NCBI RefSeq assembly: GCF_017068395.1
Contig: NZ_CP070619.1
Span: 6,882,001-6,946,000 of the forward strand
DNA length: 64,000 bases
Reading direction: 5' to 3'
Origin: Rhodococcus pseudokoreensis
GTDB taxonomy: Bacteria > Actinomycetota > Actinomycetes > Mycobacteriales > Mycobacteriaceae
Below are positions 3,991-28,222 of this stretch, piece after piece; the stretch's first letter is position 1; each line of letters opens with the position of its first letter. The translations under genes and the position numbers were made by a program. The notes under the pieces were generated by a model. The model made no database searches. It was given only the letters and a program-made list of their open reading frames with translations, and was not told the origin of the DNA.

Positions 3991-5565
3991 CTACCGCCCG
4001 GAGTCAACCGTTGCTGCGGCGGAGGACAGCTCGCGCTTGAGGAGCTTCCCGGTGGCTGTCATCGGCAGTACCGTGACGAATTCGACGGAGCGAGGGTACT
4101 TGTAGGCGGCGATTCGTTCCTTGCACCAGGTGATCAGTTCCGGTTCGGAAATCTGCGCGCCGGGTTCGGGGATGACGAACGCCTTGATCTCCTCGCCGTG
4201 CTGTTCGTGTGGGACACCGATGACTGCGGCGAGTGAGACCGCCGGGTGGGTGATGAGCATTTCTTCGATCTCGCGGGGGTACACGTTGAACCCTCCGCGG
4301 ACGATCATGTCTTTGGCGCGGTCGACGATGAAGTAGAAACCGTCTGCGTCGCGGCGGGCGAGATCGCCCGTGCGGAACCACCCGTGGTGCATGGCTTCGT
4401 CCGTCGCGTCCGGGCGATCGTAGTAGCCCTTCATGACGTTGTGGCCGCGGATCGCGATCTCGCCGACCGTGTCGGCGCCTTCGACGGTATTCCAGTCGGG
4501 GTCGATCAGGCGCACCTGTACGCCCCAGATCGGGACGCCGATCGAGCCGGCCCGCGGCGCCTGCTCCGGATCGCTGAACAGCGCGATGGGCGAGGTTTCC
4601 GACAGCCCGTAGGCCTCGAGAATCTGGACGCCGAATCGTGTTGCGAAACGCTCGAGGATTTCCACCGGCAGTGGTGCGCCCCCGGAGATCGCCTTGCGGA
4701 GGTTGGCGGCGATGCGGTCGACGTCGACCGCATCGTCGACCGCCCCGAGCAGCCCCCAGTACATCGTCGGCACACCCGCGAACATCGTGATCGACTCGCG
4801 TTCCATGATCTCCAGTGCCGCACCGGCCTCGAAGCGCGGCAGCAACACCAGCGTTGCGCCTACCGAGAACCCGGCGTTCATGTTGACCGTCTGCCCGAAC
4901 GAATGGAACAGCGGGAGAGTCGCCAGATGGGTGTCCGGCCGACTCGGGGAGTTGTCGAACAACCTGTTGGATGCGATGGCGTTCATCGTCATGTTCGAAT
5001 GGGTCAACTCGGCGCCCTTCGGCCGGCCGGTCGTTCCGCTCGTGTAGAGGATGACGGCGGTGTCGGTGGCCTCCCGCGCCACCGACTCGAACGCCGTGGA
5101 CTGGGCGGGAAGCACGGCCGACAGGTGTGTGATCCCCTCGACGTGGGTGTCGTCGTCCGTGCCGATCACGAACATCGTGTGGCACGAGGGCACCTCACCG
5201 AACGCCGCCCGTCCATACGTGCCGATCGGCAGATCCGCCCCGCCCTCGAAGCAGAAGTAGGCGGTGGCTCCACAGTCCTGCAGGTGGTAGGCGATCTCAC
5301 CGGACTTCAACAGGATGTTGAGCGGCACGACCACGGCACCCGCCTTGAGGATGCCGTAGTAGACGATCGGAAACCAGGGCAGGTTGGGGCAGGACATCGC
5401 CACCCGGTCGCCGGGCGTGATCCCGGATGCGACGAGGAGGTTCGCGATCTGGTTCGAGAGGGAGTCGGTCTCGGCGTACGTAAGCCGCTCCTCTCCCAGG
5501 ACCAGAGCGTCGCGACTCGGGTACTTGCGGGCCGAGTCTTCGAGGAACATGGACAGGTTGAGCAT
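3991..5565 (-). CDS. Acyl-CoA ligase, FadD-like (class I adenylate-forming)
   Basis: A 524-residue AMP-binding enzyme forming an acyl-CoA from a carboxylic acid, ATP and CoA via an acyl-adenylate. The P-loop-like A3 motif YTSGTTGRPKG is at 174-184, followed by GLSETS (A5), GWFRTGDLARRDADGF (A7), the hinge DRAKDMIVRGGFNVYPREIE and the catalytic Lys in TATGKLLKREL. Length and motifs fit medium/long-chain or aryl acid CoA ligases. It is the last gene of operon 1, 44 bases after the acetoacetyl-CoA synthetase stop, with GAGGGAA before its ATG. It may activate the starting acid or a product acid of the BKACE pathway; substrate cannot be read from sequence. Confidence 0.85.
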   Translation of the reverse strand: MLNLSMFLEDSARKYPSRDALVLGEERLTYAETDSLSNQIANLLVASGITPGDRVAMSCPNLPWFPIVYYGILKAGAVVVPLNILLKSGEIAYHLQDCGATAYFCFEGGADLPIGTYGRAAFGEVPSCHTMFVIGTDDDTHVEGITHLSAVLPAQSTAFESVAREATDTAVILYTSGTTGRPKGAELTHSNMTMNAIASNRLFDNSPSRPDTHLATLPLFHSFGQTVNMNAGFSVGATLVLLPRFEAGAALEIMERESITMFAGVPTMYWGLLGAVDDAVDVDRIAANLRKAISGGAPLPVEILERFATRFGVQILEAYGLSETSPIALFSDPEQAPRAGSIGVPIWGVQVRLIDPDWNTVEGADTVGEIAIRGHNVMKGYYDRPDATDEAMHHGWFRTGDLARRDADGFYFIVDRAKDMIVRGGFNVYPREIEEMLITHPAVSLAAVIGVPHEQHGEEIKAFVIPEPGAQISEPELITWCKERIAAYKYPRSVEFVTVLPMTATGKLLKRELSSAAATVDSGR

Positions 5566-5609
5566 CAGTTTCCCTCAGTGCCGTTGGAGTGTAGGTGGAT
5601 TCGCGGCGA

Positions 5610-7625
5610 TCACGGTGCCGTCGCGTAGTTGGTCTGCCGTACTTCCGCGAGGCGTTCGAAGAACCCGAGCAGTGACGGGTCGTCGATGCCGTCGGGATTG
5701 ACCACGTCCTCGACGCGGGCGCCCTGGAGCACCCGCTTGAGTGGCACCTCGATCTTCTTTCCGGTCCGGGTGTGTGGAATACCCGTGACCTCCAGCACGT
5801 CGTCGGGAACATGCCGTGGCGATACGTGATCGCGAATCGTCGAGCAGATCTTTCCGATCAGGATCTCGTCGAGGGTGTGCCCCGCGTGGAGGACGACGAA
5901 GAGCGGCATCCAGTACGAGCCGTCGGCTTCTTCGACACCGACGACCAGGGCTTCCGAAATTTCGGGGAGCGCTTCGACAGCGGAGTAGATGTCCGCGCTT
6001 CCCATCCGGACACCGTTGCGGTTGAGGGTCGAGTCCGACCGCCCGTGCACTGCGACGGTTCCGTCTTCGTAGATGGTGGCCCAGTCGCCTTGTCGCCAGA
6101 CGCCGGGGTAGGTGTCGAAGTAGGCATCGTGGTATTTCGCTCCGTCGGGGTCGTTCCACAGGGCGACGGGCATATTCGGAAGGGGCCTGGTGACGACGAG
6201 ATCACCGACGGTCCCGCGAACCGGGTTGCCGTTCATGTCCCACGTTTCGACGGCGACGCCGAGGCATCGCCCGGAGATCCGGCCGACACGGACCGGACGG
6301 GTCGGAACGGCGCCGACGAGGGCGCCGGCGATATCGGTGCCGCCGCTCATCGACCACAGAGGAATGTCGCCGACCTCGTCGTGCGCCCACCGGTACAGGT
6401 GCTCACTCAAAGGGGCTCCGGTGCAGCCGATTGCGCGTAGTCGCGACAGCGGGTGCTCGGCCTTCGGATGTACGTCGGCGTCGGCACACGTCTGAAGGTA
6501 GCCGGGGCTGGTGCCGAGAAAGGTGGCGCCGGTGTCGGCGACGAGCTTCCACAGCGAGTCCGTGCAGGGGTAGGTCGGTGCGCCGTTGTAGCACACGATC
6601 GACGCCCCCGAGAGCAGGACGGCGACCTGCATGTTCCACATCATCCAGCTCGTCGAGGTGTACCAGAGCACGCGGTCGTCCGGCGTGAGGTTCCAGTGCA
6701 GTCCCATTTGTTTGACGGTTTCGATCATGATGCCGCCGTGCCCGTGCACCAGCCCCTTCGGTCGACCTGTCGTTCCGGAGGAGAACAGCACCCACAGCGG
6801 GTGGTCGAAGTCGACGTCGGTGAAACCGGAGCGGGCTTCTCGACGTGCGATCGCCGCATCCCAGTCGTGCCATGCCTGCACAGTGCCGTCGAGTCGGGTA
6901 CGTGCCGACGTGTTGTCGGTGGAGGTGCGCTGCACGACAATCACATCCGTCACGGACGGAAGCCCGGCCGCGATCTGTCCGACCGCGTCGATGCGCGAAT
7001 GCTGACGGCCGGCATAGATGTATCCATCCGCGGCGATCAGGACCTTCGGCGACAGTTGCGAGAACCGGTCGACGACAGCATCCGGTGCGTAGTCCTGCCC
7101 GACCGATGCCCAGGTTGCGCCGAGCGTCGCCGCGGCAAGGAAGGCGATGACGGATTCTGCGGTGTTGGGCAGGTACCCCACGACCACATCTCCGCTGCCG
7201 ACCGCGAGGGCTTCGAGCTCGGCCGCCAGCGTGAGCACCTGCTCACGTAGTTCCGACCTGGTCAGTGTCCGGACAACACCCGATTCTTCCGCGGCCACGA
7301 TTGCGACGGCGTCCGGGTCGCCCCGGTCGAGCAGGACCCGCGCAAAGTTGATCCGTGCACCCGGGAACCAGCGGGTGCCGGGCATCTGATCGTCGAGTAG
7401 AACTGCGTCGTAGTCACTTTCACTGTCGATTCCGAAGAAGTCCCACACCGACGACCAGAATCCCTCGAGATCGGTGACGGACCACTGCCAGAGCTCCTCG
7501 TAGTCGTCGACCTCGACACCCCGAGCGTCGCGAACATACTCGACGAACCTGGTGAGAGTGGTATCGGCGCGCTCGGCCGAGTCGGGGCTCCACAGGATTC
7601 CACCTGGTGAATCAGCGGACTGCAT
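5610..7625 (-). CDS. Acetoacetate--CoA ligase, copy 1
   Basis: A 671-residue acetoacetyl-CoA synthetase: ATP + acetoacetate + CoA gives acetoacetyl-CoA + AMP + PPi. The N-terminal cap (LWSPDSAERADTTLTRF, FWSSVWDFF) is diagnostic for this subfamily; the adenylation motif FSSGTTGRPKG lies at 281-291 and the C-terminal PHTRTGKKIEVPLKR carries the catalytic Lys. The ATG at 7625 is preferred to an upstream ATG at 7655 because AAAGGAC sits just before it and the shorter protein matches copy 2 (670 aa). It sits 48 bases after hydrolase 1 in operon 1. Acetoacetate is exactly the by-product expected of the BKACE enzyme encoded upstream, so this enzyme probably recovers that carbon. Confidence 0.92.
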   Translation of the reverse strand: MQSADSPGGILWSPDSAERADTTLTRFVEYVRDARGVEVDDYEELWQWSVTDLEGFWSSVWDFFGIDSESDYDAVLLDDQMPGTRWFPGARINFARVLLDRGDPDAVAIVAAEESGVVRTLTRSELREQVLTLAAELEALAVGSGDVVVGYLPNTAESVIAFLAAATLGATWASVGQDYAPDAVVDRFSQLSPKVLIAADGYIYAGRQHSRIDAVGQIAAGLPSVTDVIVVQRTSTDNTSARTRLDGTVQAWHDWDAAIARREARSGFTDVDFDHPLWVLFSSGTTGRPKGLVHGHGGIMIETVKQMGLHWNLTPDDRVLWYTSTSWMMWNMQVAVLLSGASIVCYNGAPTYPCTDSLWKLVADTGATFLGTSPGYLQTCADADVHPKAEHPLSRLRAIGCTGAPLSEHLYRWAHDEVGDIPLWSMSGGTDIAGALVGAVPTRPVRVGRISGRCLGVAVETWDMNGNPVRGTVGDLVVTRPLPNMPVALWNDPDGAKYHDAYFDTYPGVWRQGDWATIYEDGTVAVHGRSDSTLNRNGVRMGSADIYSAVEALPEISEALVVGVEEADGSYWMPLFVVLHAGHTLDEILIGKICSTIRDHVSPRHVPDDVLEVTGIPHTRTGKKIEVPLKRVLQGARVEDVVNPDGIDDPSLLGFFERLAEVRQTNYATAP

Positions 7626-7673
7626 GGATGTCCTTTCCGGATGAGGTCGTCTCATCGTTGTGTCCTGCGGGTG

Positions 7674-8267
7674 CTACGAGCCGACGGTCGCCGCAGCAGC
7701 TGTGAGTTCTTCGATCAATTCGACGGCGGCGGGCCACTCGCCGTATCCCGACGCGGGGTTGAGGTGCCCGACCTCGCCCAGGTTCACCAGCCGGCTACCC
7801 CAGGCATCGGCGAGTCGGGCCACGGCCGCGTAACTCGCGAGGGGGTCGTTGGTGCCGGCGGCGACGATGCTCGGGAAGGGAAGTGGTCCGCGGGGTACCG
7901 GGGTCCAGCCCAGTTCCGTGAGAGCCTGAGGGGACAGATTGCCGGCGGGCAGGGGAGCCTCGAGGTCGGGTGGCGCGGCGAGCAGTGCGCCCGCGATGCG
8001 ATCGGTGCCGGGGTGACGTTGCGCCCAGTGGGCCGTGATCACCACACCGGCGCTGTGTGCCACGAGGAGCGCGCGGCCGGGTACGGCCGCCAAGGTCTCG
8101 TCGAGTGCTGCCATCCGGTCGTCCAGGCTGGCATTGCTGTCGCTGCTGACCGGGACGGTGAGGGTGCCGGCGATTGTGGTGGCGAGGATCGTCTGCCAGT
8201 GTTCTTCGACGTGTCCGCGAAGTCCGGGGACGATCACGATCGTCGGTCCACTCTCGTTCGTCGTCAT
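7674..8267 (-). CDS. RBBP9/YdeN-type alpha/beta serine hydrolase, copy 1
   Basis: A 197-residue small single-domain hydrolase. The start region reads IVIVPGLRGHVEEHWQ, the nucleophile elbow is LLVAHSAGVV, and the C-terminal catalytic His is in GEVGHLNPASGYGEW; these are characteristic of the Ser_hydrolase (PF06821, RBBP9/YdeN) family. Its ATG overlaps the stop of MFS1 by four bases, so the two are translationally coupled. A paralogue (19139-19735) occupies the same place before acetoacetyl-CoA synthetase 2, so the hydrolase is a fixed part of the pathway. It could hydrolyse an ester, lactone or acyl-CoA intermediate; that role is inferred only from context. Confidence 0.82.
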   Translation of the reverse strand: MTTNESGPTIVIVPGLRGHVEEHWQTILATTIAGTLTVPVSSDSNASLDDRMAALDETLAAVPGRALLVAHSAGVVITAHWAQRHPGTDRIAGALLAAPPDLEAPLPAGNLSPQALTELGWTPVPRGPLPFPSIVAAGTNDPLASYAAVARLADAWGSRLVNLGEVGHLNPASGYGEWPAAVELIEELTAAAATVGS

Positions 8268-9598
8268 GTGGTCGCACTCCGGTCGTTGGTCGAGTTCTGT
8301 GTCAGCTCGCTGAGGTTCTTCAATCCTGCTGCGTAGTAGCGGTTTCCGATGACGAGCGCGAGAGCCGCGAGTACGGATGCGACGGGAACGACGTGCAGTG
8401 CTCCGTTGAGTCCGACACGGTCGGCCAGGGCCCCGACAACCACTGGGGCGGGAGCCAGTCCGATCAGGCTGTTGGCGAGGGTCACGGTTCCGATCGCAGA
8501 GGCCCGGATGGATGCGTGGGTGAGGTTCGCGACGAGTGCGCCTGCGGGTCCGGAGACACCTCCGGCGAAGAACGCCCCGCCGCCCAGGAAGATCAGTTGC
8601 AGCGTGCCCGGTTCGAGACTGAATGCGGTGAAGAGGAGAACCGCGGAGGCCAGGCAGAAGCCGATCGAGGACGTCCACCTCTTGCTGTGATCGAGACGGC
8701 TCACGCTGTCGGAGATCATCCCGCAGCCGACCATGCCGATGCCGATCAGCAGGACGAAGACAGCGGCGAGCAGGGCCGCCCGGTCGGGAGCGAGGTCGTA
8801 GTACCGGTTGACGTAGCTCGGCAGCCACGTCAGCAACGCTCCGGCCACGAACAGTTGCAGGCCGCTACCGAGATAGGTGCTGATGACGGCGACGCCCTTG
8901 AACAGGCTCGACAACGGCGCGCGACCGCCGTCCGCAGCACTCGGTGTCTGAACGTCGTCCGGGTGCCGGTACAGGGCGATGCGGCTCTCGTTGACCAAGG
9001 TCCGGAATGCGACGACGAGGACGAATCCGATGATCGCCATCGCCCCGAAAGCCCAACGCCATCCGAAGTTGACGGCGATGACACCGCCGAGCGACACACC
9101 GACGACAGATCCGAACATTGCGCCCGACATGAATGCCCCGGTCAGCGAAGCCCGCCGCTCTGGTGCGAACAGACCCACGATGACCGCGGCGCCGATGCTG
9201 CCGTAGGCAGCCTCACCGACCCCGACGAAGAAGCGGCCGACCAGCATTTCGCCGTAGCTGTCTGCGAACGCGCAGAACAGGGTGGCCGCACTCCACAATG
9301 CCGCCGAGGCAACCAGCATTCGGACGCGACCCCACCGGTCCGCCGCAACCGACAGCGGAAAGATCAGCACGCCGACCATCAACGCGACGATTCCGGTGAG
9401 GGAGCCGAGATGTGCATCGGACAGATCCCACTCCGCCTTGAGGATCGGGAACACGGCGCTGACCACTTGCCGCGACATGTAGTCGGACAGCATCAGGGCA
9501 AAGATCAGCGAGAAGACGACCCAGGGATAGAGGCCGGACGACCGGCTGGGTCGAGCCAGATCGACGGTCTTGTCGTCATCGGCGACGGAAAGGCCCAT
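8264..9598 (-). CDS. MFS transporter, copy 1
   Basis: A 444-residue major facilitator superfamily permease with about 12 hydrophobic helices split by a central charged loop (VNESRIALYRHPDDVQTPSAADGGR). The loop 2-3 signature is seen as FPLSVAADRWGRVRMLVASA, and helix 1 has the acidic-acid-transporter-like DYMSRQVVSAVFP. It probably imports an organic acid for operon 1. The ATG follows GAGGAG. Just upstream of its start lie a perfect 18-bp tandem repeat (9613-9648) and a hairpin (9749-9780) that separates it from BKACE1. Its stop overlaps hydrolase 1. Substrate unknown. Confidence 0.85.
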   Translation of the reverse strand: MGLSVADDDKTVDLARPSRSSGLYPWVVFSLIFALMLSDYMSRQVVSAVFPILKAEWDLSDAHLGSLTGIVALMVGVLIFPLSVAADRWGRVRMLVASAALWSAATLFCAFADSYGEMLVGRFFVGVGEAAYGSIGAAVIVGLFAPERRASLTGAFMSGAMFGSVVGVSLGGVIAVNFGWRWAFGAMAIIGFVLVVAFRTLVNESRIALYRHPDDVQTPSAADGGRAPLSSLFKGVAVISTYLGSGLQLFVAGALLTWLPSYVNRYYDLAPDRAALLAAVFVLLIGIGMVGCGMISDSVSRLDHSKRWTSSIGFCLASAVLLFTAFSLEPGTLQLIFLGGGAFFAGGVSGPAGALVANLTHASIRASAIGTVTLANSLIGLAPAPVVVGALADRVGLNGALHVVPVASVLAALALVIGNRYYAAGLKNLSELTQNSTNDRSATT

Positions 9599-9801: not shown

Positions 9802-10854
9802 TCAGGCGTGTCCGGTGAAACCGACCTGGCCGGGCTTGCGGTTCGGCGCGTAGCCGAGCTTGGCGAGGGTCTCGTCCGCGTCGCGGTACGTTTCGCCGAT
9901 CTTGTAGATGTCGCGGGCTTCCTTGCCGGTGGCGACCTCGCGTCCGAGTTCGTTCGCGATCCGCACGAGCTGCCTGACCTGCGCGGCCGAGGTCAGCTTC
10001 TCGCCCTTGCGACCCCACAGGGTGTCCTCGTTACCGCAGCGGGTGTGCAGGCCCATCGCGATCGCCATCGCGTTGACCGGCAACACCGACCGCATGAGGG
10101 TTTCGAGGGTCAGGCACGCGCCGTCCGGGACCCGTTGGACGAAGTTCGTGATGTTGTACGGGTTCGGGCCCTCCTGCCCGCCACCGATCGCCACCCAGGT
10201 CAGGTTCAGCGGACCGGTGTAGACGCCGCGGCGGATCAGCCGCTCCACCGTTTCCAACTGCGCGAGCGAACCGAGCTGGAACTGCGGCTGGATCCCGGCG
10301 GCCTGCAGCCGGCGCAGGTGCTCCTCGACCCATTCCGGGCCGGCCGGGACCGTCATCTCCCGGTACGCCTTGGCGAGCTCGGGACGCTCCATCGACGTGC
10401 CCGCGAGGTCGTCGGCGGTCATCAGCTCCATGAGATTCATCTGGCTGGTGTTGATCGCGATCGTCACCTGATCCGGCTTCGGATCGAGCTCGGCGAGCAT
10501 GTGCCGGGTGTCGTCCGACAGCCAATTCGCGTCGGCGCCGTCACCCTCAGGCGAGAACGAGATCGATCCTCCGACCTGCAGGATCATGTCCGGTACGGCC
10601 TCACGCAGACCCGCGAGGAGCTCGTTGAACTTCGACAGCCGCTTGGAGCCCTTGCCGTCGAGTTCGCGGACGTGGATGTGCAGGACCGTCGCGCCGGCCT
10701 CGTAGCAGTCGACCGCCTGCTGGATGTGCTCCTCCATCGTCAGGGGGAGGTCTTCGCGGAAGTCGTCCGGCTCCCACTCGGGCCCGTAGGGGGCCACCGT
10801 GATGACCAGCTTCTCCTGGGTCTCCGGGAACAGGGAATCGTCGTGGAAATGCAT
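9802..10854 (-). CDS. BKACE family (DUF849) beta-keto-acid cleavage enzyme, copy 1
   Basis: A 350-residue TIM-barrel enzyme of the BKACE/3-keto-5-aminohexanoate cleavage family. The family reaction is beta-keto acid + acetyl-CoA giving acetoacetate + a new acyl-CoA, with a divalent metal. The metal-binding HxH is at residues 59-61 (VLHIHVRELDGKG); LQVGGSISFSPEG and the C-terminal RCGNEDTLWGRKGEK region are also recognisable. The ATG at 10854 aligns with the starts of the two paralogues (MHF.DD.LFPE). It follows tauD1 by 47 bases and is followed by a hairpin. BKACE subfamilies differ in the keto acid used (dehydrocarnitine, 3-keto-5-aminohexanoate, others); this subgroup's substrate is not known to me. 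Confidence 0.9.
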   Translation of the reverse strand: MHFHDDSLFPETQEKLVITVAPYGPEWEPDDFREDLPLTMEEHIQQAVDCYEAGATVLHIHVRELDGKGSKRLSKFNELLAGLREAVPDMILQVGGSISFSPEGDGADANWLSDDTRHMLAELDPKPDQVTIAINTSQMNLMELMTADDLAGTSMERPELAKAYREMTVPAGPEWVEEHLRRLQAAGIQPQFQLGSLAQLETVERLIRRGVYTGPLNLTWVAIGGGQEGPNPYNITNFVQRVPDGACLTLETLMRSVLPVNAMAIAMGLHTRCGNEDTLWGRKGEKLTSAAQVRQLVRIANELGREVATGKEARDIYKIGETYRDADETLAKLGYAPNRKPGQVGFTGHA

Positions 10855-10901: not shown

Positions 10902-11798
10902 TCAGAAGGGGCGGTCGCCGACGATCCCGGCGCGTTCCATCTTGCGGACGGCGGGCCAGTAGTCCTGGACGGCGTAGTGCTGGGTGGATCGGTTGTCCCA
11001 GATGGCGACGCTGTTCGGGGTCCACCGCCACCGCACCTGGTATTCGGGGATCGAGGCCTGGCTGATCAGGTAGTTGAGCAGGTTGCTGCTGCCTGGGGCG
11101 TAGTCGATGCCGCAGCGGATGTTGTCCGGCGTGTGGTAATTGGTGAAATGGGTGGTGAAGCAGTTGACGAACAGGATCTTCTCGCCGGTTTCGGGGTGGG
11201 TGCGGACCACGGGGTGTTCGGGGTCGGGGAACCGCTCCTTGAGTTCGAGTCGCTGTTCGAGCGGCATCCGGGCGCCGAAGGTCGCCTCGATGCTGTGGCG
11301 GGCGCGGAGGCCGTCGATCTGTTCCTTGACGCGTTCGGGCAGCCGCTCGTAGGCGAGGGCCATGTTCACCCAGATCGTGTCGCCGCCGACCTCGGGGCCG
11401 TCGATATTCCGCAGGATGGCTCCCATAGGCGGGTTGTCACGCCAGGTGGCGTCGCAGTGGTAGGCGTTCTCGTAGTGCTCCGCGGGGCTGTCGAGGTCCT
11501 TGTAGATCCGGACCAGACCTGCGTATTCGGGGTCGCTGCCGACGACCGGATGGTCCTCGAGCGAGCCGAACCGCTTCGCCAGCGCGACGTGCTCGGCCCG
11601 GCTCATGTCCTGATCGCGGAAGAACAGCACCTTGTGCTCGAGCAGCAGCGACTTCAGTTCGGCGAACAACCCGTCGTCACGCGACACCGCGGCAAGGTCG
11701 ACACCGTGGAGTTCGGCGCCGATGCTGCAGGTCAACGGCCGCGCATCCATCGGGGTCACGGTCGCCGGTCGGCTGGGCGCGAAGTCAACGGTGGTCAT
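10902..11798 (-). CDS. TauD/TfdA Fe(II)/2-oxoglutarate dioxygenase, copy 1
   Basis: A 298-residue dioxygenase that would hydroxylate its substrate using Fe(II), O2 and 2-oxoglutarate. The iron ligands are visible: H114-x-D116 (YHCDATW) and distal H274 (NRSTQHYAVQDY), with the co-substrate Arg in RKMERAGI. The ATG at 11798 is preceded by CAGGAGAG; upstream codons in frame are non-protein-like. Codons from roughly residue 96 to the end are nearly identical at DNA level to tauD2 (26510-27123) while the N-terminal third has diverged, a mosaic explained by recent gene conversion. Second gene of operon 1, 94 bases after qor1. TauD-type enzymes attack sulfonates, aryloxyalkanoates or betaines; the substrate here is unknown. 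Confidence 0.9.
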   Translation of the reverse strand: MTTVDFAPSRPATVTPMDARPLTCSIGAELHGVDLAAVSRDDGLFAELKSLLLEHKVLFFRDQDMSRAEHVALAKRFGSLEDHPVVGSDPEYAGLVRIYKDLDSPAEHYENAYHCDATWRDNPPMGAILRNIDGPEVGGDTIWVNMALAYERLPERVKEQIDGLRARHSIEATFGARMPLEQRLELKERFPDPEHPVVRTHPETGEKILFVNCFTTHFTNYHTPDNIRCGIDYAPGSSNLLNYLISQASIPEYQVRWRWTPNSVAIWDNRSTQHYAVQDYWPAVRKMERAGIVGDRPF

Positions 11799-19138: not shown

Positions 19139-19735
19139 CTATGAGTCGGTACCGGCCCCAGTGGCTACTTCTTCCAGTAGCTCCTCGAGGAATTGGTGGC
19201 CTTGTTCCCAATGGCCGTATCCGGAGATGGGATTGAGATGGCCGACAGCGCCGGCGTTCACGAGACGTGCGCCCCAGGACTCGGCAAAATCGGCGGCACG
19301 ATCAAATGTGGACAACGGATCATTCGTGCTGGCCACCGCGGTGCAGGGGAACGGCAACGGCTCACGCGGAATGGGCAACCATCCGGCATCGTCGAGATCT
19401 TGGACCGTCGAATGTCCCTCGGGCATCGGGGTTTCGAGGTCTGGTGGCGCAACCAGCAATGCGCCGACAATCTGATGACCGTCTCGTCGAGCCGCCCAGT
19501 GCACTGTGATCATCACGCCGGCGCTGTGCGCGACGAGCACGACTGGTCCGTCGATCTCGGACAGGATCGTGTCGAGTGCGGCCTCGCGTGCATCCAGATT
19601 CAGGGAGTTGCGTTCGAGAGGTGGCACCGTGCGGGTCTTGGGCAAAGTATCCGCGAGCAAACTTTGCCAGTGGTCAGGGTTGTGGTCGCGTAGTCCGGGG
19701 ACGAAGACCACGGTTGGCGTGTCGGTGTTGTGCAT
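19139..19735 (-). CDS. RBBP9/YdeN-type alpha/beta serine hydrolase, copy 2
   Basis: A 198-residue small serine hydrolase with VVFVPGLRDHNPDHWQ, nucleophile elbow VLVAHSAGVMITVHW and catalytic His in VGHLNPISGYGHW, matching copy 1 residue for residue in the motifs. The ATG at 19735 follows AGGGAA. It begins 46 bases after the hairpin that follows BKACE2, so its expression depends on read-through or on a promoter within that gap. The co-location with an acetoacetyl-CoA synthetase is the same as in operon 1. Confidence 0.82.
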   Translation of the reverse strand: MHNTDTPTVVFVPGLRDHNPDHWQSLLADTLPKTRTVPPLERNSLNLDAREAALDTILSEIDGPVVLVAHSAGVMITVHWAARRDGHQIVGALLVAPPDLETPMPEGHSTVQDLDDAGWLPIPREPLPFPCTAVASTNDPLSTFDRAADFAESWGARLVNAGAVGHLNPISGYGHWEQGHQFLEELLEEVATGAGTDS

Positions 19736-19850: not shown

Positions 19851-20903
19851 TCAGGCGTGGTGGGTGAATCCGACCTGTCCGGGTCGGCGGTTGGGCGAGA
19901 ACCCGGTCTTGGCCAGGGTCTCGTCGACGTTGTCGTATCGTTCGTCGAGCTTGTAGATTTCGCGGGCCTCCTTGCCGGTAGCGACCTCGCGGCCGAGTTC
20001 GCCGGCAATGCGGACCAGCTGTTCGATCTGCTGGACCGAGGTCATCCTCTCGCCCTTGCGACCCCAGATGGTGTCCTCGTTGCCGCAGCGAACGTGCAGG
20101 CCCATCGCGATCGCCATCGTGTTGATCGGCAACACCGAACGCATGAGTGACTCGAGTGTCAGGACCGCGCCCTCGGGAGCCCGGCGAATGAATTCCATTG
20201 CGTTGAAGGGGTTCGGGCCATCGCCGCCACCCCCGATCCCCACCCAGGTCAGCACGAGCGGGCCGGTGTACGCGCCGCGCCTGAGCAGACGTTCGAGCTT
20301 CTCGAGTTGCGGAATTCCGGGGATCTGGAAATGCGGCTGGATTCCGGCGGCCTGCAACCGCCGCACGTGTTCTTCAACCCAGCTGGGTCCGGCGGGAACC
20401 ACCATCTCGCGGTAGGCCTCCCACACCTCGGGACGCTCGAAAGACGTGCCCGCGATGGTGTCCGGAGTCATCAGGTCGGTGATGTTCATCTGCTTCGTCG
20501 ACACGGCGACGGTGACCTGGTCGGGCTTCGGATCGAGTTCGGCAAGCATGTGCCGGGTGTCGTCGGTGAGCCACTTCGCGTCCGCGCCCTCGCCCTCGGG
20601 GGCGAAGGAGATGGAACCGCCGACCTGCAGGATCATGTCCGGCACCGCCTCGCGCAGACCCGCGAGCAGTTCGTTGAACTTCGACAGGCGCTTGGAGCCC
20701 TTGCCGTCGAGTTCGCGGACGTGGATGTGCAGTACCGTCGCGCCGGCCTCGTAGCAATCGACGGCAGCCTGAACGTGCTCCTCCATCGTCAACGGCAGGT
20801 CCTCGCGGAAGTCGTCCAACTCCCATTCGGGTCCGTACGGCGCTGCGGTGATGACCAGCTTCTCCTGGTTCTCGGGGAAGAGTGAATCGTCAAGGAAATG
20901 CAC
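19851..20903 (-). CDS. BKACE family (DUF849) beta-keto-acid cleavage enzyme, copy 2
   Basis: A 350-residue BKACE protein starting at GTG 20903 (HFLDDSLFPENQEKLVITAAPYG), with GAAATGGAG upstream exactly as in copy 3. The metal-binding VLHIHVRELDGKG and RCGNEDTIWGRKGER regions are intact. It differs from copy 1 mainly around the substrate pocket stretch after the HMLAELDPKPDQVT segment (VSTKQMNITDLMTPDTIAG instead of INTSQMNLMELMTADDLAG), features shared with copy 3. First gene of operon 2. The 3' end, from about codon 285 on, is nearly identical in DNA to BKACE3. Expected products are acetoacetate plus an acyl-CoA. Confidence 0.9.
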   Translation of the reverse strand: MHFLDDSLFPENQEKLVITAAPYGPEWELDDFREDLPLTMEEHVQAAVDCYEAGATVLHIHVRELDGKGSKRLSKFNELLAGLREAVPDMILQVGGSISFAPEGEGADAKWLTDDTRHMLAELDPKPDQVTVAVSTKQMNITDLMTPDTIAGTSFERPEVWEAYREMVVPAGPSWVEEHVRRLQAAGIQPHFQIPGIPQLEKLERLLRRGAYTGPLVLTWVGIGGGGDGPNPFNAMEFIRRAPEGAVLTLESLMRSVLPINTMAIAMGLHVRCGNEDTIWGRKGERMTSVQQIEQLVRIAGELGREVATGKEAREIYKLDERYDNVDETLAKTGFSPNRRPGQVGFTHHA

Positions 20904-21435: not shown

Positions 21436-22785
21436 ATGACTACTGCCAAGACGTACCGGGGCCGTTCAACCGGTCACTCCGGTGGCCTCGCCCGACCTCG
21501 TCTCGTGACGAATCGACGGGTATGGGGTACGACAGGACTCGTCATCTTCCTCTATATCGTGAACTACGCCGACAAGGCAGTCTTGGGCATCATCGCCCAG
21601 CCGTTGGCGCGCGAGCTCGATTTCACCGCTTCGCAGATCGGACTGGTCGGCTCGCTGTTCTATCTGGCATTTACGATCGGAGGCTTCCTGGCCGGTCCCT
21701 TGAACAGGTACCTCACGCTCAAATGGGCGTTGCTGGTGGTTGCCCTCATATGGTCGGTCGTCATGTTGCCGCTGGTGCTCGCGGCCTCCTTTGCGGTACT
21801 GGTCGCTTCACGGATGCTACTCGGACTGTCCGAGGGGCCGGCTACTGCACTGATGCACACCGCTGCGTATTCGTGGCATCCGCCCGCCAAGCGCGGCCTG
21901 GTGACCGCATTGCTCGGTAGTTCCGCCTCCGTTGCGAAGATCGTCATTGCACCCATCCTTGCCTTCGTCACCATCGAGTACGGCTGGCGCGTAGCGATCT
22001 TGGTCCTTTCCGGGCTGGGGGCATTGTGGGCAGTGTGTTGGCTGATCGGCTGGACCGAGGGCCCACACATCGCGAAGACGGTCGAGGCTGAGGATTCGGT
22101 GCCGGCGCAGGCCACGGGGGATGCGTCGCCCACGCAGCCCTCCGTTCCATGGCGTCGGATCTTTCTCTCGCGCACGTTCGTCACCTGCGCTCTCCTGGCG
22201 ATGGCTCTCTATGCCTTGACCACGGTCGTGCTTACCTGGCTGCCGTCCTACTTCGAGCTGGGCCTCGGCTACACGGCCTTGCAGGCTGGGTCGCTGTTCG
22301 CGCTTCCGTCCGTCGTAGCTCTGGTGACCATGATCGCGTCCGGCGCGATCACTGACCGTTTGATTCAGCGCGGCGTCGGCTCGCGGGTCGCGCGCATCGT
22401 CATCGCGAGTGCAGGTGTCCTCGTGTGCGGGGCCGTGCTGGTGACGCTTCCGTTGATCGAGGTGCCGGTAGTGGCCGTCGTCGTGCTCTCCCTCGGATAC
22501 GGCTCCGCTTTGATCGCGTTGCCGTTGATACATTCCGCCGTCTCCGAGCTGTGCCCACCGCAGCAGACCGCCGGCACGATGGGTATGTACCTGGCCCTGA
22601 TGGGCATCGGAGGTTTGATCGCTCCGTATGCGACTGGTGTCGTCGTCGAGCACGCGGCGACTGCAGCAGATGGATACGCTCTAGCGTTTCAAGGCGTCGG
22701 CATCTTCGTAGCGATCGGCGGCATCCTCATTCTGCTGTTCGCGAACCCCGAGCGGGACCGCCTACTCATCTGCCGTACGCCGTAG
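21436..22785 (+). CDS. MFS transporter, copy 3
   Basis: A 449-residue MFS permease. Helix 1 reads LVIFLYIVNYADKAVLGIIAQPLARELDF, closely resembling the fourth MFS gene at 28896-30221 (FINFADKAVLGLVAKPLSEEFGL). This NYADK/NFADK pattern is found in transporters for aromatic or small carboxylic acids (anion:cation symporter-type). The ATG at 21436 follows GAAGGA. It stands alone on the plus strand between BKACE operon 2 and araC3. It may bring in the substrate of the split operon 2/3 pathway. Confidence 0.83.
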   Translation: MTTAKTYRGRSTGHSGGLARPRLVTNRRVWGTTGLVIFLYIVNYADKAVLGIIAQPLARELDFTASQIGLVGSLFYLAFTIGGFLAGPLNRYLTLKWALLVVALIWSVVMLPLVLAASFAVLVASRMLLGLSEGPATALMHTAAYSWHPPAKRGLVTALLGSSASVAKIVIAPILAFVTIEYGWRVAILVLSGLGALWAVCWLIGWTEGPHIAKTVEAEDSVPAQATGDASPTQPSVPWRRIFLSRTFVTCALLAMALYALTTVVLTWLPSYFELGLGYTALQAGSLFALPSVVALVTMIASGAITDRLIQRGVGSRVARIVIASAGVLVCGAVLVTLPLIEVPVVAVVVLSLGYGSALIALPLIHSAVSELCPPQQTAGTMGMYLALMGIGGLIAPYATGVVVEHAATAADGYALAFQGVGIFVAIGGILILLFANPERDRLLICRTP

Positions 22786-22816: not shown

Positions 22817-23824
22817 TCATGACGACGACTGGTGCTGGAGACGCCATTGGGTGGGGCTGCAGCCGAACTGTCCGTGGAACCAGCGTGAGAAACTGCTCGG
22901 TGCAGAGAAGGCGAGAAGAGTGGAAATCTCGGTGAGGTCGGGGCGTGCGCTTCCGACCATGCGTTCTGCGAGGTCGGTCCGTACCGAGTTCAGGATCGAC
23001 GAGTAGGTTTCGCCGGTTTCGGTCAGTCGTCGGTGCAGCGACCGACGGTCGATGCCGAGGCTGCGAGCTACCTGTTCAGCACTGCAACGCCCGGTCGGTA
23101 ACAGAACCTCGATTGATTCGCGAACTCGTAGAGCGACGCTCACATCTCCGGGCTCGCCGAACGACGCGAGAATGTGGTGGGTGTAGGGGCGAAGAGATGG
23201 GTCCGACATCCGGTTGGGGGAGTCGAGGTCACGAGACTCGATGACGATCCCGGTGAAATCGGAATCGAAATTGATAGTCCCCCCGAAGATGCGGCGGTGG
23301 GTGCTGACATCCGCGGGTGCCGGGTGGGGAAAACACACCGCGAGTGGCTTCCAGCGTGAACCGATGAAGCCGCGCAACAATCGATATATTGCGGCGACCC
23401 CGAGTTCGACAAATTGCCTCGCTTCGATCTGTTCCCCGACATTGGTGTCGATGCGTACCGTCATCACGCCGTTCGCCTCGTGCAAGTGAGGCTGCAGCGC
23501 CTCGTTATAGACGTGCGTATATCGGGCGAGGATTCGAAGAGCACTCCGAACATCCGGTTCGTCCCGGACAACCACGCTGAGCGGACCGAGATTTGCGAAC
23601 TGACGGCGTACGGCCAGTTGTAACCCGAAGTCTTCGCGCCCGGACTGGGCCGCAGATTGCTCGAGGAGCCGGGCAATCGCCGCCGCGGAGATCCATCGAT
23701 CTTGCGTGCCGAGACCGCCGACATCAACTCCCGCGTCCTTCATCAGCGGTACCGGTTCGATCCCCACATCGCGACATACGTCGAGATAGCCGATCAACGT
23801 TGCGTAGCGAGCAAGAGGTTTCAC
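22817..23824 (-). CDS. AraC-family regulator with arabinose-binding-like domain (AraC3)
   Basis: A 335-residue regulator starting at GTG 23824 with AGGAG upstream (the nearby ATG runs straight into a stop). N-terminal ligand domain (KPLARYATLIGYLDVCRDVGIE ... FANLGPLSVVVRDEPDVRS); C-terminal HTH region (AEQVARSLGIDRRSLHRRLTETGETY, then LTEISTLLAFSAPSSFSRWFHGQFGCSPTQWR). It is divergent from operon 3, with a 41-nt element only 19 bases ahead of its own start. A second copy of that element lies ahead of operon 2. I infer that AraC3 activates operons 2 and 3 and represses itself by covering its own start region. Confidence 0.86.
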   Translation of the reverse strand: MKPLARYATLIGYLDVCRDVGIEPVPLMKDAGVDVGGLGTQDRWISAAAIARLLEQSAAQSGREDFGLQLAVRRQFANLGPLSVVVRDEPDVRSALRILARYTHVYNEALQPHLHEANGVMTVRIDTNVGEQIEARQFVELGVAAIYRLLRGFIGSRWKPLAVCFPHPAPADVSTHRRIFGGTINFDSDFTGIVIESRDLDSPNRMSDPSLRPYTHHILASFGEPGDVSVALRVRESIEVLLPTGRCSAEQVARSLGIDRRSLHRRLTETGETYSSILNSVRTDLAERMVGSARPDLTEISTLLAFSAPSSFSRWFHGQFGCSPTQWRLQHQSSS

Positions 23825-23934: not shown

Positions 23935-24993
23935 ATGATCCCCCAACAGTTCGGGATTCACGTTCCTCCGCAGCCGGCTTCCGCGTCGGCCGGGGCCGTA
24001 TTGCAGGTGCCGTACCGTTCACGTAATTCGTGGCACGCCGGTGATCTGGTCGATGCCACTGACTGGTGCATCCAGCTGTCGGCCGCAGACGTCGCAGAGC
24101 TCGACTCGGCCTTGCGAGCTGCCCAGGCATGTAGTTTGCCGATCCTCAGGCTCGAGTCCGAGCATTTTCCGCTTCCGAACCTTGCGGCGAGGCTGCGGCA
24201 GGTCGCGACCAGCCTCGACGGCGGCCTCGGGTTTGCCGCGATCCGTGGGATCCCGGCGGAACACTACGGCGAGGCAGATCTCAGGACGATCCTGTGGGGA
24301 ATCGGTCAGCACCTCGGGATCCCGGTATCCCAGAACGCATACGGCCACATGCTCGGCACGGTGCGGCCGTCAGCGGCGACCGAGAAGGCTGCGCCGCTCA
24401 CCTCCGCGGGGTCCGATGTCACCGCGGTACTCGGCCTGGGATCCGGCAATCGGTCTGTCGTGGTCAGTTCGGCGGCAATCTTCAACGAGATTCTTGCCGG
24501 GTGGCCGCATCTCGCCGAGCGGCTGTTCAGGACCTATCACCTCGACCGTCGCGGGGATCAGCCTCCAGGTGAGCGACCGTACCGTGCAGTGCCCTTGGCC
24601 TGTTGGTTCGACGGCAAACTGAGCATTCGCTACTCCCGACACGATATTGATTCCGCACAACGGTATTCCGGCGTGCCAGGACTCGATTCTGACGACCTCG
24701 CACTGTTGGACCTTGTCGATGAACTGCTCGGATCGGCGCGCTTGCGGTTCGAGGTAGACCTGCGGCCCGGCGAGATTCACCTGTTCAACAATTACGCCGT
24801 ACTGCACGCGCAGACCCACGTCAGCTCACGTGGGCGCGCGGCCACAGACTTGCTCGAGCTCTGGTTGACCCTCCGTCACGGACGTGCGCTGCCCTCGGCT
24901 TTCACCTGGCTGAACGGCCGGGGCGGTCGAGGCGAGGTAACTCCCCGCGACGTCGTGATGCCCACCGGCATCGGTCGGTCGCAGCGCCCATAG
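23935..24993 (+). CDS. TauD/CAS-like dioxygenase homologue lacking the iron-binding HxD
   Basis: A 352-residue protein with the fold pattern of the clavaminate-synthase/TauD branch: GFAAIRGIP near 100, LGIPVSQNAYGHMLGTV, VVSSAAIFNEIL near 177-188, and PGEIHLFNNYAVLHAQT near 279-294. Where active members read HTD just before D-V-x-A-L, this one has T156-S157-A158 (PLTSAGSDVTAVLGL). The usual LLRLW co-substrate Arg site reads LLELW (E308). Only the distal H291 remains. It is probably not an ordinary Fe(II)/2-oxoglutarate enzyme: a regulatory or scaffolding pseudo-enzyme, or one with altered chemistry. It is intact, has a strong ribosome site (GAGGAGGAG) and is the first gene of operon 3. Confidence 0.72.
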   Translation: MIPQQFGIHVPPQPASASAGAVLQVPYRSRNSWHAGDLVDATDWCIQLSAADVAELDSALRAAQACSLPILRLESEHFPLPNLAARLRQVATSLDGGLGFAAIRGIPAEHYGEADLRTILWGIGQHLGIPVSQNAYGHMLGTVRPSAATEKAAPLTSAGSDVTAVLGLGSGNRSVVVSSAAIFNEILAGWPHLAERLFRTYHLDRRGDQPPGERPYRAVPLACWFDGKLSIRYSRHDIDSAQRYSGVPGLDSDDLALLDLVDELLGSARLRFEVDLRPGEIHLFNNYAVLHAQTHVSSRGRAATDLLELWLTLRHGRALPSAFTWLNGRGGRGEVTPRDVVMPTGIGRSQRP

Positions 24994-25137: not shown

Positions 25138-26112
25138 ATGGCCAAGGCCATCCGTTACTACGAGATCGGTAGCCCGGACGTCCTCAAGTGGGAGTGGATC
25201 GAGGTCGGAGATCCAGGGCTCGGTGAGGTCCGTATCCGGCACGAGGCAGTGGGACTGAACTTCGCCGACACCTACTATCGCACCGGCCTGTATCCAGCCG
25301 CGTTGCCGGCAGGAATGGGTGTCGAGGCTGCCGGAATCATCGAGGCCGTCGGCGAGGGGGTCACCGACTTCCAGCCGGGCGACCGGGTCACGTACACCGG
25401 CAGTCCACTCGGTGCGTACAGCACGGAGCGGGTCATGCCCGCAAAACACCTGATCGCAATTCCGGAGGCGATCCCGTTCGAGATTGCCGCCGCGATGACA
25501 ATGCGTGGACTCACCACCTCATATCTGTTGCGGAGGATCTGGGATGTGCAGGCAGGCGACACGGTTCTGCTTCACGCCGCGGCGGGTGGAGTAGGGCTGA
25601 TATTCACTCAGTGGGCAAAGCTACTCGGCGTGAAGGTGATCGGGACTGTCTCGAGCGAACACAAGGCTGAGATTGCCCGTGCGAACGGGTGCGACGAAGT
25701 GATCATCTACACGCAAGAAGACGTCGCGAGCCGCGTTCGCGATATGACGGACGGCAAGGGTGTTTCGGTCGTCTACGACAGTATCGGAGCTACCACCTTC
25801 GACAGCTCGCTGAAGTCGCTCAAACGGCGAGGGTTGCTGGTGTGTTTCGGCACCGCGTCCGGGCCGATTCCGCCCATCGAGGCGATGCAGCTGGCGCTCA
25901 ACGGCTCGGTCTACGTGACCCGCCCGGCGCTCGCAGACTACATCGCCGACCCGGCAGAGAAGGCCGCCTTGTCTGCCGAGCTGTTCGAACATGTTGCGGC
26001 AGGCCGAATCGCCATCAATATCAACCAGCGGTATGCGCTGGACGATGCGGTGCGTGCCCATCGCGATCTGGAATCCGGAAGTACCACCGGTTCCTCGGTG
26101 TTCACATTCTGA
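25138..26112 (+). CDS. NADPH:quinone oxidoreductase-like MDR protein, copy 2
   Basis: A 324-residue zinc-free MDR enzyme, same length as copy 1 and colinear with it throughout (AKAIRYYEIGSPDVLKWEW ... HAAAGGVGLIFTQWAKLLG ... GSSVFTF). The dinucleotide-binding AAAGGVG is intact. AAGGAG precedes the ATG. It follows the HxD-less dioxygenase-like gene by 144 bases and precedes tauD2 by 99 bases. Unlike tauD2 it shows no near-identical DNA block with its paralogue, so the duplication of the pair is old and only parts were later homogenised. Confidence 0.87.
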   Translation: MAKAIRYYEIGSPDVLKWEWIEVGDPGLGEVRIRHEAVGLNFADTYYRTGLYPAALPAGMGVEAAGIIEAVGEGVTDFQPGDRVTYTGSPLGAYSTERVMPAKHLIAIPEAIPFEIAAAMTMRGLTTSYLLRRIWDVQAGDTVLLHAAAGGVGLIFTQWAKLLGVKVIGTVSSEHKAEIARANGCDEVIIYTQEDVASRVRDMTDGKGVSVVYDSIGATTFDSSLKSLKRRGLLVCFGTASGPIPPIEAMQLALNGSVYVTRPALADYIADPAEKAALSAELFEHVAAGRIAININQRYALDDAVRAHRDLESGSTTGSSVFTF

Positions 26113-26211: not shown

Positions 26212-27123
26212 ATGGGCGCAATATCTGACCTCGAGCCTGTTCGACCGACCGACCTGTCCACCATTCGGACGACTTTCACCGCAGAACCTCTCACCTGCAG
26301 CATCGGCGCCGAGCTGAGCGGCGTCGACCTCGCCGCCGTCGTCCACGACGACGGGTTGTTCGCCGAACTGAGATCGCTGCTGCTGAAGTACAAGGTGCTG
26401 TTCTTCCGCGATCAGGAGATGAGCCGGGCGGAGCACGTCGCGTTGGCAGAACGTTTCGGTCTGCTCGAAGATCACCCGAAGGCCGGGAGCGACCCGAATC
26501 ACCCGGGGTTGGTCCGGATCTACAAGGACCTCGACAGCCCCGCGGAGCACTACGAGAACGCCTACCACTGCGACGCCACCTGGCGTGACAACCCGCCGAT
26601 GGGAGCCATCCTGCGGAATATCGACGGCCCCGAGGTCGGCGGCGACACGATCTGGGTGAACATGGCACTCGCCTACGAGCGGCTGCCCGAACGCGTCAAG
26701 GAACAGATCGACGGCCTCCGCGCCCGCCACAGCATCGAGGCGACCTTCGGCGCCCGCATGCCGCTCGAACAGCGACTCGAACTCAAGGAGCGGTTCCCCG
26801 ACCCCGAACACCCCGTGGTCCGCACCCACCCGGAGACGGGCGAGAAGATCCTGTTCGTCAACTGCTTCACCACCCATTTCACCAATTACCACACGCCGGA
26901 CAACATCCGGTGCGGCATCGACTACGCCCCCGGCAGCAGCAACCTGCTCAACTACCTGATCAGCCAGGCCTCGATCCCCGAATACCAGGTGCGCTGGCGG
27001 TGGACCCCGAACAGCGTCGCCATCTGGGACAACCGATCCACCCAGCACTACGCCGTCCAGGACTACTGGCCCGCCGTCCGCAAGATGGAACGCGCCGGGA
27101 TCGTCGGCGACCGCCCCTTCTGA
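26212..27123 (+). CDS. TauD/TfdA Fe(II)/2-oxoglutarate dioxygenase, copy 2
   Basis: A 303-residue dioxygenase with all ligands: HCD in YHCDATW, distal His in QHYAVQDY and the RKMERAG Arg. The ATG at 26212 follows ACAGGAG. Residues before about 100 differ at many positions from TauD1 (for example KAGSDPNHPGL against VVGSDPEYAGL). From the codons at 26510 to the stop the predicted protein is identical and the DNA differs only at scattered silent positions (for example at the codons in CCGCCGATG, ATGGCACTC and GCCCGCATG). The sharp change in divergence marks a conversion tract. The similarity stops right at the TGA. Substrate as for copy 1, unknown. Confidence 0.9.
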   Translation: MGAISDLEPVRPTDLSTIRTTFTAEPLTCSIGAELSGVDLAAVVHDDGLFAELRSLLLKYKVLFFRDQEMSRAEHVALAERFGLLEDHPKAGSDPNHPGLVRIYKDLDSPAEHYENAYHCDATWRDNPPMGAILRNIDGPEVGGDTIWVNMALAYERLPERVKEQIDGLRARHSIEATFGARMPLEQRLELKERFPDPEHPVVRTHPETGEKILFVNCFTTHFTNYHTPDNIRCGIDYAPGSSNLLNYLISQASIPEYQVRWRWTPNSVAIWDNRSTQHYAVQDYWPAVRKMERAGIVGDRPF

Positions 27124-27175
27124 CGCGCAGTTCCACGGCCCCGTAAGAACAACTTGTGAGAAATGGAGTTTCACA

Positions 27176-28222
27176 ATGCATTTCCTCGACGATGCACTCT
27201 TCCCCGAAAACCAGGACAAACTGGTCATCACCGCGGCGCCGTACGGTCCCAAGTGGGAACTGGACGACTTCCGCGAAGACCTGCCGTTGACGATGGAGGA
27301 GCACGTTCAGGCCGCCGTCGACTGCTATGAGGCCGGCGCTTCGGTCCTCCATATCCACGTCCGCGAACTCGACGGCAAGAGATCGACACGGCTCTCGACG
27401 TTCAACGAACTCCTCGGCCGTTTGCGCGAGGCCGTGCCGGATATGATCCTGCAGGTCGGCGGGTCGGTCTCGTTCGAGCCGGAAGACGAGGGTGCGCAGT
27501 GGTCGGCCGAGGATGCCCGGCACATGATCGCCGAGCTCGATCCGAAGCCCGACCAGGTCGCCGTCGCCGTGTCGACGAAGCAGATGAACATCACCGACCT
27601 GATGACTCCGGACACCATCGCGGGCACGTCCTTCGAGCGTCCCGAGGTATGGGAGGAGAACCGCGAGATGGTGGTTCCCGCCGGACCCAGCTGGGTCGAG
27701 GAGCACCTGAGGCGGTTGCAGGCCGCCGGAATCCAGCCACACTTCCAGGTTCCCGGAATTCAGCACCTCGAGAAGCTCGAGCGTCTGCTCAGGAGTGGCG
27801 CGTACACCGGTCCGCTGAACCTGACCTGGGTGGGGATCGGTGGTGGCGGCGATGGCCCGAACCCCTGCAATGCAATGGAATTCATCCGTCGGGCTCCCGA
27901 GGGTGCGGTCGTGACCTTCGAATCCTTCATGCGTTCGGTGTTGCCGATCAACGCGATGGCCATCGCGATGGGCATGCACACCCGTTGTGGTAACGAGGAC
28001 ACTCTGTGGGGTCGCAAGGGCGAGAAGATCACCTCGGTCCAGCAGATCGAACAGCTGGTCCGCATTGCCGGCGAACTCGGCCGCGAGGTCGCCACCGGCA
28101 AGGAGGCCCGCGAAATCTACAAGCTCGACGAACGATACGACAACGTCGACGAGACCCTGGCCAAGACCGGGTTCTCGCCCAACCGCCGACCCGGCCAGGC
28201 CGGATTCACCCACCACGCCTGA
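27176..28222 (+). CDS. BKACE family (DUF849) beta-keto-acid cleavage enzyme, copy 3
   Basis: A 348-residue BKACE protein (HFLDDALFPENQDKLVITAAPYG) with intact VLHIHVRELDGK and RCGNEDTLWGRKGEK motifs. Two residues are missing relative to copies 1 and 2 in the loop after VSFEPEDEG. The ribosome site and leader (TGAGAAATGGAGT, TCACA) are the same as for BKACE2. The last about 70 codons, the hairpin and 20 bases beyond are nearly identical to the BKACE2 region. There is no hydrolase or acetoacetyl-CoA synthetase after it, so this set depends on copies elsewhere. It lies 52 bases after tauD2 and ends operon 3. Confidence 0.9.
   Translation: MHFLDDALFPENQDKLVITAAPYGPKWELDDFREDLPLTMEEHVQAAVDCYEAGASVLHIHVRELDGKRSTRLSTFNELLGRLREAVPDMILQVGGSVSFEPEDEGAQWSAEDARHMIAELDPKPDQVAVAVSTKQMNITDLMTPDTIAGTSFERPEVWEENREMVVPAGPSWVEEHLRRLQAAGIQPHFQVPGIQHLEKLERLLRSGAYTGPLNLTWVGIGGGGDGPNPCNAMEFIRRAPEGAVVTFESFMRSVLPINAMAIAMGMHTRCGNEDTLWGRKGEKITSVQQIEQLVRIAGELGREVATGKEAREIYKLDERYDNVDETLAKTGFSPNRRPGQAGFTHHA

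Follow-up and report, generated by a model that had tools for sequence, protein, structure and literature searches.

We analysed a 64,000-nucleotide stretch (hereafter the window) of the 9.87-Mb genome of Rhodococcus pseudokoreensis (assembly GCF_017068395.1, contig NZ_CP070619.1, forward-strand positions 6,882,001 to 6,946,000). At positions 3991 to 28222 of the window lie genes for a TauD-type dioxygenase, a Qor-type reductase, a BKACE-fold enzyme of the DUF849 family, a small serine hydrolase (SerH) and an acetoacetyl-CoA synthetase (AACS) (Table 1). A preliminary description of this region had listed these five families as duplicated sets with their own transporters and AraC regulators. 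All five were recovered with strong profile scores, and MFS transporter and AraC genes do stand beside the sets; however, only one set is complete and the other two are complementary halves. Set 1 (3991-12867, minus strand) is an operon of the order Qor1-TauD1-BKACE1-MFS-SerH1-AACS1-acyl-CoA ligase with a divergent AraC gene, and it is the only place where the five families are contiguous, whereas set 2 consists of BKACE2-SerH2-AACS2 (17105-20903, minus) and set 3 of Qor2-TauD2-BKACE3 (25138-28222, plus). That description did not list the acyl-CoA ligase gene (3991-5565), a gene of the carboxymuconolactone decarboxylase-like (CMD) family (15226-15639) and a divergent TauD-like gene (23935-24993). 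The host genome has six BKACE genes, five belonging to the clade studied here and one with the canonical motif.

Table 1. Genes of the three sets and of their surroundings, in window coordinates
Feature	Position	Strand	Assignment
ACS, acyl-CoA ligase, last gene of set 1	3991..5565	-	NF004837 477.6 bits (cut-off 476); PF00501
AACS1, acetoacetyl-CoA synthetase	5610..7655	-	TIGR01217 765.9 bits (cut-off 520.9)
SerH1, small serine hydrolase	7674..8264	-	PF06821 138.8 bits; start set by inspection
MFSa, MFS transporter	8264..9598	-	PF07690 162.5 bits
BKACE1, DUF849/BKACE-fold	9802..10854	-	PF05853 215 bits
TauD1, Fe(II)/2-oxoglutarate dioxygenase	10902..11798	-	PF02668 214.9 bits
Qor1, NADPH:quinone reductase family, first gene of set 1	11893..12867	-	NF008024 357.2 bits (cut-off 348); ADH_zinc_N
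AraC-type regulator, divergent from set 1	12999..14138	+	PF12625 138.1 bits, PF12833 61.6 bits (13047-14138 scanned)
AraC-type regulator	14023..15069	-	PF12625 127.7 bits
CMD-family protein	15226..15639	+	tblastn 68% identity to CMD of the R. gordoniae set
MFSb, MFS transporter	15636..17036	+	PF07690 153.2 bits
AACS2, acetoacetyl-CoA synthetase	17105..19117	-	TIGR01217 770.5 bits
SerH2, small serine hydrolase	19139..19735	-	PF06821 150.5 bits
BKACE2	19851..20903	-	PF05853 209 bits; Gln/Pro at Glu/Tyr positions
MFSc, MFS transporter	21436..22785	+	PF07690 177 bits
AraC-type regulator	22817..23824	-	PF12625 150.8 bits
Divergent TauD-like oxygenase	23935..24993	+	PF02668 55.7 bits; nearest PDB chain FrbJ, 99.6 bits
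Qor2	25138..26112	+	NF008024 365.5 bits
TauD2	26212..27123	+	PF02668 215.3 bits
BKACE3	27176..28222	+	PF05853 209 bits; Gln/Pro at Glu/Tyr positions
MFSd, MFS transporter, slightly beyond the reported span	28896..30221	-	PF07690 149.3 bits

The closest named relatives of BKACE1 (94-95% identity) come from Nocardia, Prescottella and Rhodococcus. A scan of species genomes returned 60 loci and plasmids 24 records, and under strict thresholds the clade gene is present in 35 of 151 genomes of the host's family, 10 of 249 genomes of a Sphingomonas's family and 52 of 150 genomes of a Paraburkholderia's family. The 110 loci collected gave 108 distinct clade proteins, 93 of them from loci with 8 kb of flank on both sides. 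Partners were counted up to 8 kb away from the clade gene, with a minimum identity of 50% for Qor, TauD and SerH and of 35% for all others. By this count, the 93 loci carry TauD in 82 cases, Qor in 78, both in 76, MFS in 76, AraC in 80, SerH in at least 60 (a lower bound at 50% identity), an acyl-CoA ligase in 46 and, as a frequent sixth partner, a CMD-family gene in 41; TauD occurs without Qor in six, Qor without TauD in two, and neither is found in nine. Gene calls were crude in part of the fetched regions, including those of the Sphingomonas and Paraburkholderia families. In Tsukamurella tyrosinosolvens the set forms a compact island, an AraC gene next to Qor-TauD-BKACE-MFS-SerH-CMD, with unrelated genes on each flank, and on a Streptomyces plasmid the order is BKACE-Qor-TauD-MFS-SerH-AACS. 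In the neighbourhood search, a step proposed in the preliminary description, the core recurs across phyla. Because the same set recurs in this way, it is not a chance arrangement, and these data support the view that the core is a real conserved catabolic operon of Actinobacteria and Proteobacteria.

The second half of the pathway had been considered clear: BKACE would release acetoacetate from acetyl-CoA and a beta-keto acid, and the synthetase would reactivate it. The active-site residues of the clade do not support this as it was put. In the alignment of the 108 distinct proteins, the zinc ligands are kept throughout and the equivalents of R226, E230 and D231 are invariant, whereas the proposed catalytic Glu is kept in none (Gln in 101, Met in six, Val in one) and the canonical Tyr in 15; none of the three window copies has the Tyr, and BKACE1 has Gln193 and Gly195 at the Glu and Tyr positions. 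According to the accessible part of one report, this Glu is the proposed catalytic base of BKACE, and the E171L variant of the model enzyme is inactive (PMC11961710). With 133 bits, the best NCBIfam BKACE equivalog stays below its cut-off of 382. Two specific assignments were rejected, namely beta-ketoadipate cleavage enzyme (NF053568, 87 bits, cut-off 350) and an enzyme of the phloroglucinol/3,5-dioxohexanoate route (NF053538, 96 against 430 bits). Single-sequence fold prediction was of no use (predicted local distance difference test 38.7).

Within the BKACE family, CdhC belongs to the carnitine pathway and Kce to lysine fermentation. The set studied here resembles known BKACE (PF05853) pathways in the fold, the zinc ligands, the conserved Arg, Glu and Asp, the handling of acetoacetate and the clustering with a transporter and a regulator. 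In contrast to these pathways, however, the clade lacks the proposed catalytic Glu, mostly lacks the Tyr and is paired with TauD and Qor. BsfD, a DUF849 protein of flavophos biosynthesis, has lost the canonical Tyr, as has most of the clade; judging from the accessible account of BsfD, it is biosynthetic and has a phosphonate substrate, whereas the clade lacks the Glu as well and its context looks catabolic. Overall sequence identity to cis-epoxysuccinate hydrolase (5zmu) is only 20%. At E <= 1e-60 a protein search gave at least 6667 relatives; among the 120 matches listed, those with a name are mostly called '3-keto-5-aminohexanoate cleavage protein'. Because all 108 aligned members lack the residue thought to be required, this large automatic annotation may be wrong. 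Three relatives that are 88-89% identical to BKACE1 (P0074, P0081 and P0093) bear the source name 'transposase' and are evident misannotations.

Among solved structures, TauD1 is closest to 5vn6, deposited as 'taurine dioxygenase' (462.9 bits); it aligns with E. coli TauD at 182.8 bits, with AtsK at 142.6 and with phenoxypropionate dioxygenase at 135.6. All 128 rows of the TauD alignment, in which duplicates from overlapping loci were retained, keep the HxD...H iron triad, the Thr and Arg for 2-oxoglutarate and the residues at positions H70 and R270, and in all 128 the residues at Y73 (to Ala, Leu or Val) and N95 (to Glu) are changed. By reference to E. coli TauD, we take H70 and R270 to form the sulfonate side of the substrate pocket and Y73 and N95 the amine side. 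The TauD of the set is thus like taurine TauD and AtsK in its iron and 2-oxoglutarate residues and at H70 and R270, but it differs from taurine TauD, which sits in a tauABCD cluster, in its amine-side residues and in sharing an operon with BKACE and AraC. Neither window protein reaches the cut-off of 313 bits for taurine dioxygenase (NF007104; 233.9 and 229.9 bits). For Qor, an oxidation step is unlikely because its score lies above the NADPH:quinone reductase cut-off (NF008024). The C-terminal 206 residues of TauD1 and TauD2 are identical, and the last 597 bases of their genes agree at 588 positions, whereas the adjacent Qor and BKACE copies have 73% and 79% DNA identity, respectively. A likely explanation is that the TauD gene underwent recent gene conversion between set 1 and set 3.

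A further association concerns YeiH. Of the 35 genomes of the host's family that carry the clade gene (46 loci), 12 have a YeiH gene at a distance of 2.4-7.0 kb from it, where 0.18 pairs would be expected within 10 kb (Poisson P ~2e-18, uncorrected for relatedness). It is found in 12 of the 71 loci L010-L080, a count that overlaps in some places with that of the genomes and in which L016 and L079 represent one species, and in four of eight fetched regions of the Sphingomonas family (L082-L084 and, at only 35% identity, L086). In sphingomonads YeiH (PF03601) lies inside the operon or at its end (L059, L070, L060, L082-L084), in R. gordoniae there is an overlap with the stop codon of the ligase gene, and the position of YeiH relative to the set varies among loci. 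In a tree of 38 YeiH proteins (18 of them hand-chosen background rows from the host's family only; L081 was left out, as were five further rows, duplicates and a long branch), the label 'beside the set' needs eight changes, seven of them forced by supported branches. The linkage was therefore gained or lost several times, and some of the changes may be losses. Among the 93 loci, YeiH accompanies 18 of the 82 with TauD and none of the 11 without it, the total of 18 being inflated by seven regions (L102-L108) that were picked for carrying YeiH. The association was measured against random expectation alone and has no gene-family control, because the host's canonical BKACE (C6:7129635) occurs in only one of 151 family genomes. 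In L104 and L105 a LysR gene adjoins YeiH, an arrangement like that of yeiE-yeiH. In the accessible parts of two reports, YeiH, controlled by the LysR protein YeiE, makes Salmonella resistant to sulfite (PMC12880088), and the YeiH of Hyphomicrobium is taken to export sulfite (PMC12423496). The recurrence of a YeiH-type sulfite exporter near the set, in several lineages and at several positions, makes it probable that TauD acts on an organosulfonate and sets sulfite free. The earlier proposal that TauD hydroxylation and a redox step by Qor make the keto acid is accordingly modified, with desulfonation favoured by YeiH and by H70/R270.

The place of acetoacetate in the earlier proposal is supported. 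AACS itself is found in seven of the 93 loci, but a 3-oxoacid CoA-transferase takes its place in 24; no locus has both, and 62 have neither. In L015 both subunits of the transferase score above cut-off (TIGR02429 and TIGR02428). This interchange of enzymes supports acetoacetate as the likely product, and the loci with neither enzyme are neutral evidence if it is encoded elsewhere. At one locus, from Caballeronia grimmiae (L078, 5537-11998), the set is followed by genes for a Rieske protein and for prpB, prpC, acnD and prpF of the 2-methylcitrate cycle. These downstream genes hint at propionyl-CoA as the acyl product there.

We tentatively read the set as an inducible operon under AraC control for the breakdown of an acid that is an organosulfonate or possibly a sulfate ester; TauD would form a beta-keto acid, and a variant DUF849 enzyme would split it. 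On our own estimate this reading falls somewhat short of an even chance. Gene content, recurrence, residue changes and the associations with YeiH and CoA-transferase were computed, and from them we infer the reactions, their order and the substrate class. The MFS transporter would take up the organosulfonate acid, and Qor could reduce a conjugated C=C or quinoid bond. TauD, with Fe(II), O2 and 2-oxoglutarate, would hydroxylate the sulfonate-bearing carbon, with loss of sulfite and formation of a carbonyl; with the sulfonate beta to the carboxylate, this would give a beta-keto acid directly. The zinc-dependent BKACE-like enzyme would then split the beta-keto acid into acetoacetate and an acyl fragment, AACS or the CoA-transferase would activate the acetoacetate, the acyl-CoA ligase and SerH would handle the other fragment, and YeiH would export sulfite in some hosts. 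The duplicated versions in the host may serve related substrates. In favour of an organosulfonate, L031, a locus with BKACE only, has an importer of the NMT1/SsuA type, although it scores below the SsuA cut-off. A bolder form of this proposal, which we consider rather unlikely, is a widespread undescribed route of Actinobacteria and Proteobacteria in which TauD turns a beta-sulfo acid into a beta-keto acid and sulfite, and the Glu-free DUF849 clade cleaves it by a new chemistry, either hydrolysis without CoA or catalysis with a relocated base.

Several observations weigh against the organosulfonate proposal. The host's single YeiH lies ~274 kb from the nearest set, YeiH is absent from all 20 fetched Burkholderiaceae (Paraburkholderia family) regions and from the Nocardia, Gordonia and Tsukamurella loci among L010-L080, and the set-borne YeiH of L079 scores 160 bits, below the TIGR00698 cut-off of 233. 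Sets without YeiH could depend on a distant exporter or on sulfite assimilation; the absence near the host and Burkholderiaceae sets nevertheless caps our confidence. PlaO1, which is presumably not a sulfonate enzyme, also has His and Arg at the H70 and R270 positions; because of this, and because the residue roles are taken over from E. coli TauD, the conservation of this pair would permit a sulfonate substrate and go no further. We know of no beta-sulfo acid that would account for every gene, the proposal does not explain what Qor, CMD and SerH do, and BKACE here is not the textbook enzyme, so that cleavage by the Glu-free clade is putative.

One alternative, which makes the view of the preliminary description explicit, is free of sulfur. 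TauD would hydroxylate a beta carbon, as gamma-butyrobetaine hydroxylase does with its acid, a dehydrogenase would give the beta-keto acid, BKACE would cleave it and AACS would activate the acetoacetate. Genes of the SDR family beside BKACE or TauD in L062, L072, L089, L095 and L112, mostly without Qor, agree with such a scheme, and 85 of the 108 clade proteins have a Glu at the Glu14 position of Kce. There is also a precedent in deoxyribonate catabolism, where, in the accessible part of the report, a BKACE follows a dehydrogenase and gives acetoacetate (PMC6365646). However, the scheme leaves the YeiH association unexplained, Qor matches NADPH:quinone reductase above cut-off and set 1 of the window yielded no further dehydrogenase; we regard the scheme as doubtful. 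The known pathways of this kind were rejected as such. A carnitine or gamma-butyrobetaine operon has a hydroxyacyl dehydrogenase and a hotdog thioesterase, and a Pfam search of 20 open reading frames (3991-30221) together with Qor1 and AraC1 found neither HCDH nor a hotdog thioesterase. The deoxyribonate pathway uses an SDR and a lactonase, and TauD is not mentioned in the accessible text (PMC6365646).

The cleavage step could also differ without any change of substrate. With the proposed base gone, the DUF849 mechanism should depart from that of textbook BKACE, and the enzyme might be a zinc hydrolase working by retro-Claisen hydrolysis, or else an acyl transferase, in either case with no acetyl-CoA-dependent cleavage, with acetoacetate released and the ligase activating the other acid. 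This is compatible with an organosulfonate substrate, but the invariant zinc ligands and R226/E230/D231 equivalents, as well as AACS or CoA-transferase in 31 of the 93 loci, speak for the canonical reaction, for which Gln or some other residue might still suffice, and a common fold proves no function; we hold hydrolase or transferase activity to be unlikely. Still less probable, and in our view a poor candidate, is the cleavage of a sulfate ester or ether by TauD in the manner of AtsK or TfdA, with YeiH representing sulfate export or generic stress genes. AtsK and phenoxypropionate dioxygenase are indeed relatives of TauD1, and YeiH proteins carry the annotation 'putative sulfate exporter'; taurine dioxygenase is closer, however, and recent papers, in their accessible parts, link YeiH to sulfite (PMC12423496, PMC12880088).

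As stated in the preliminary description, no route with this set appears to have been described: we found no account of a BKACE/DUF849 protein with TauD and Qor, although subscription journals were mostly outside the search and absence is unproven. The families are known, and the combination and the Glu-free clade are apparently new. Proteomics of desulfurisation in R. qingshengii mentions TauD, and 'quinone oxidoreductase' and 'acetoacetate' are absent from its accessible text (PMC8557817). Cupriavidus metallidurans CH34 has at least six TauD genes, and the accessible account gives no pathway like this set (PMC2864759). A TauD/TfdA gene of P. phymatum is lower in a nifA mutant but, from the accessible part of that report, could not be tied to the set (PMC8305402). 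If the sulfite link is true, the operon would represent an unrecognised route of soil bacteria for a sulfonate, with relevance to sulfur cycling and sulfonated pollutants; by means of the operon, its regulator and a sulfite readout, the question can be tested directly.

In L031, L041, L062 and L072, among others, the clade BKACE gene has neither TauD nor Qor in its vicinity. The importer of L031 is of the ABC type, with an NMT1/SsuA-like binding protein and a permease, and homologues of its genes occur in L041 and L062; both L062 and L072 carry CMD and a gene of the SDR family, and L072 also has a TTT binding protein. Such loci possibly represent a second front end for the same BKACE-fold enzyme. 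The divergent TauD-like gene of the window had no separate match in the other loci compared; FrbJ, its nearest structural relative, is a hydroxylase of phosphonate biosynthesis. For the CMD gene, a Nocardia relative matches PF02627 at 30.1 bits, and the window reading frame has no NCBIfam match. The nearest PDB chains of the acyl-CoA ligase are a fatty-acyl/feruloyl-CoA synthetase and FadD13. Adjoining the ligase gene, at 3065-3937 (plus), is an F420-dependent luciferase-like oxidoreductase gene (TIGR03560, 298 bits), and 31073-37395 (minus) holds a separate catabolic group with indolepyruvate ferredoxin oxidoreductase, FAH-family hydrolase, RraA/aldolase-like and ferredoxin reductase-like genes.

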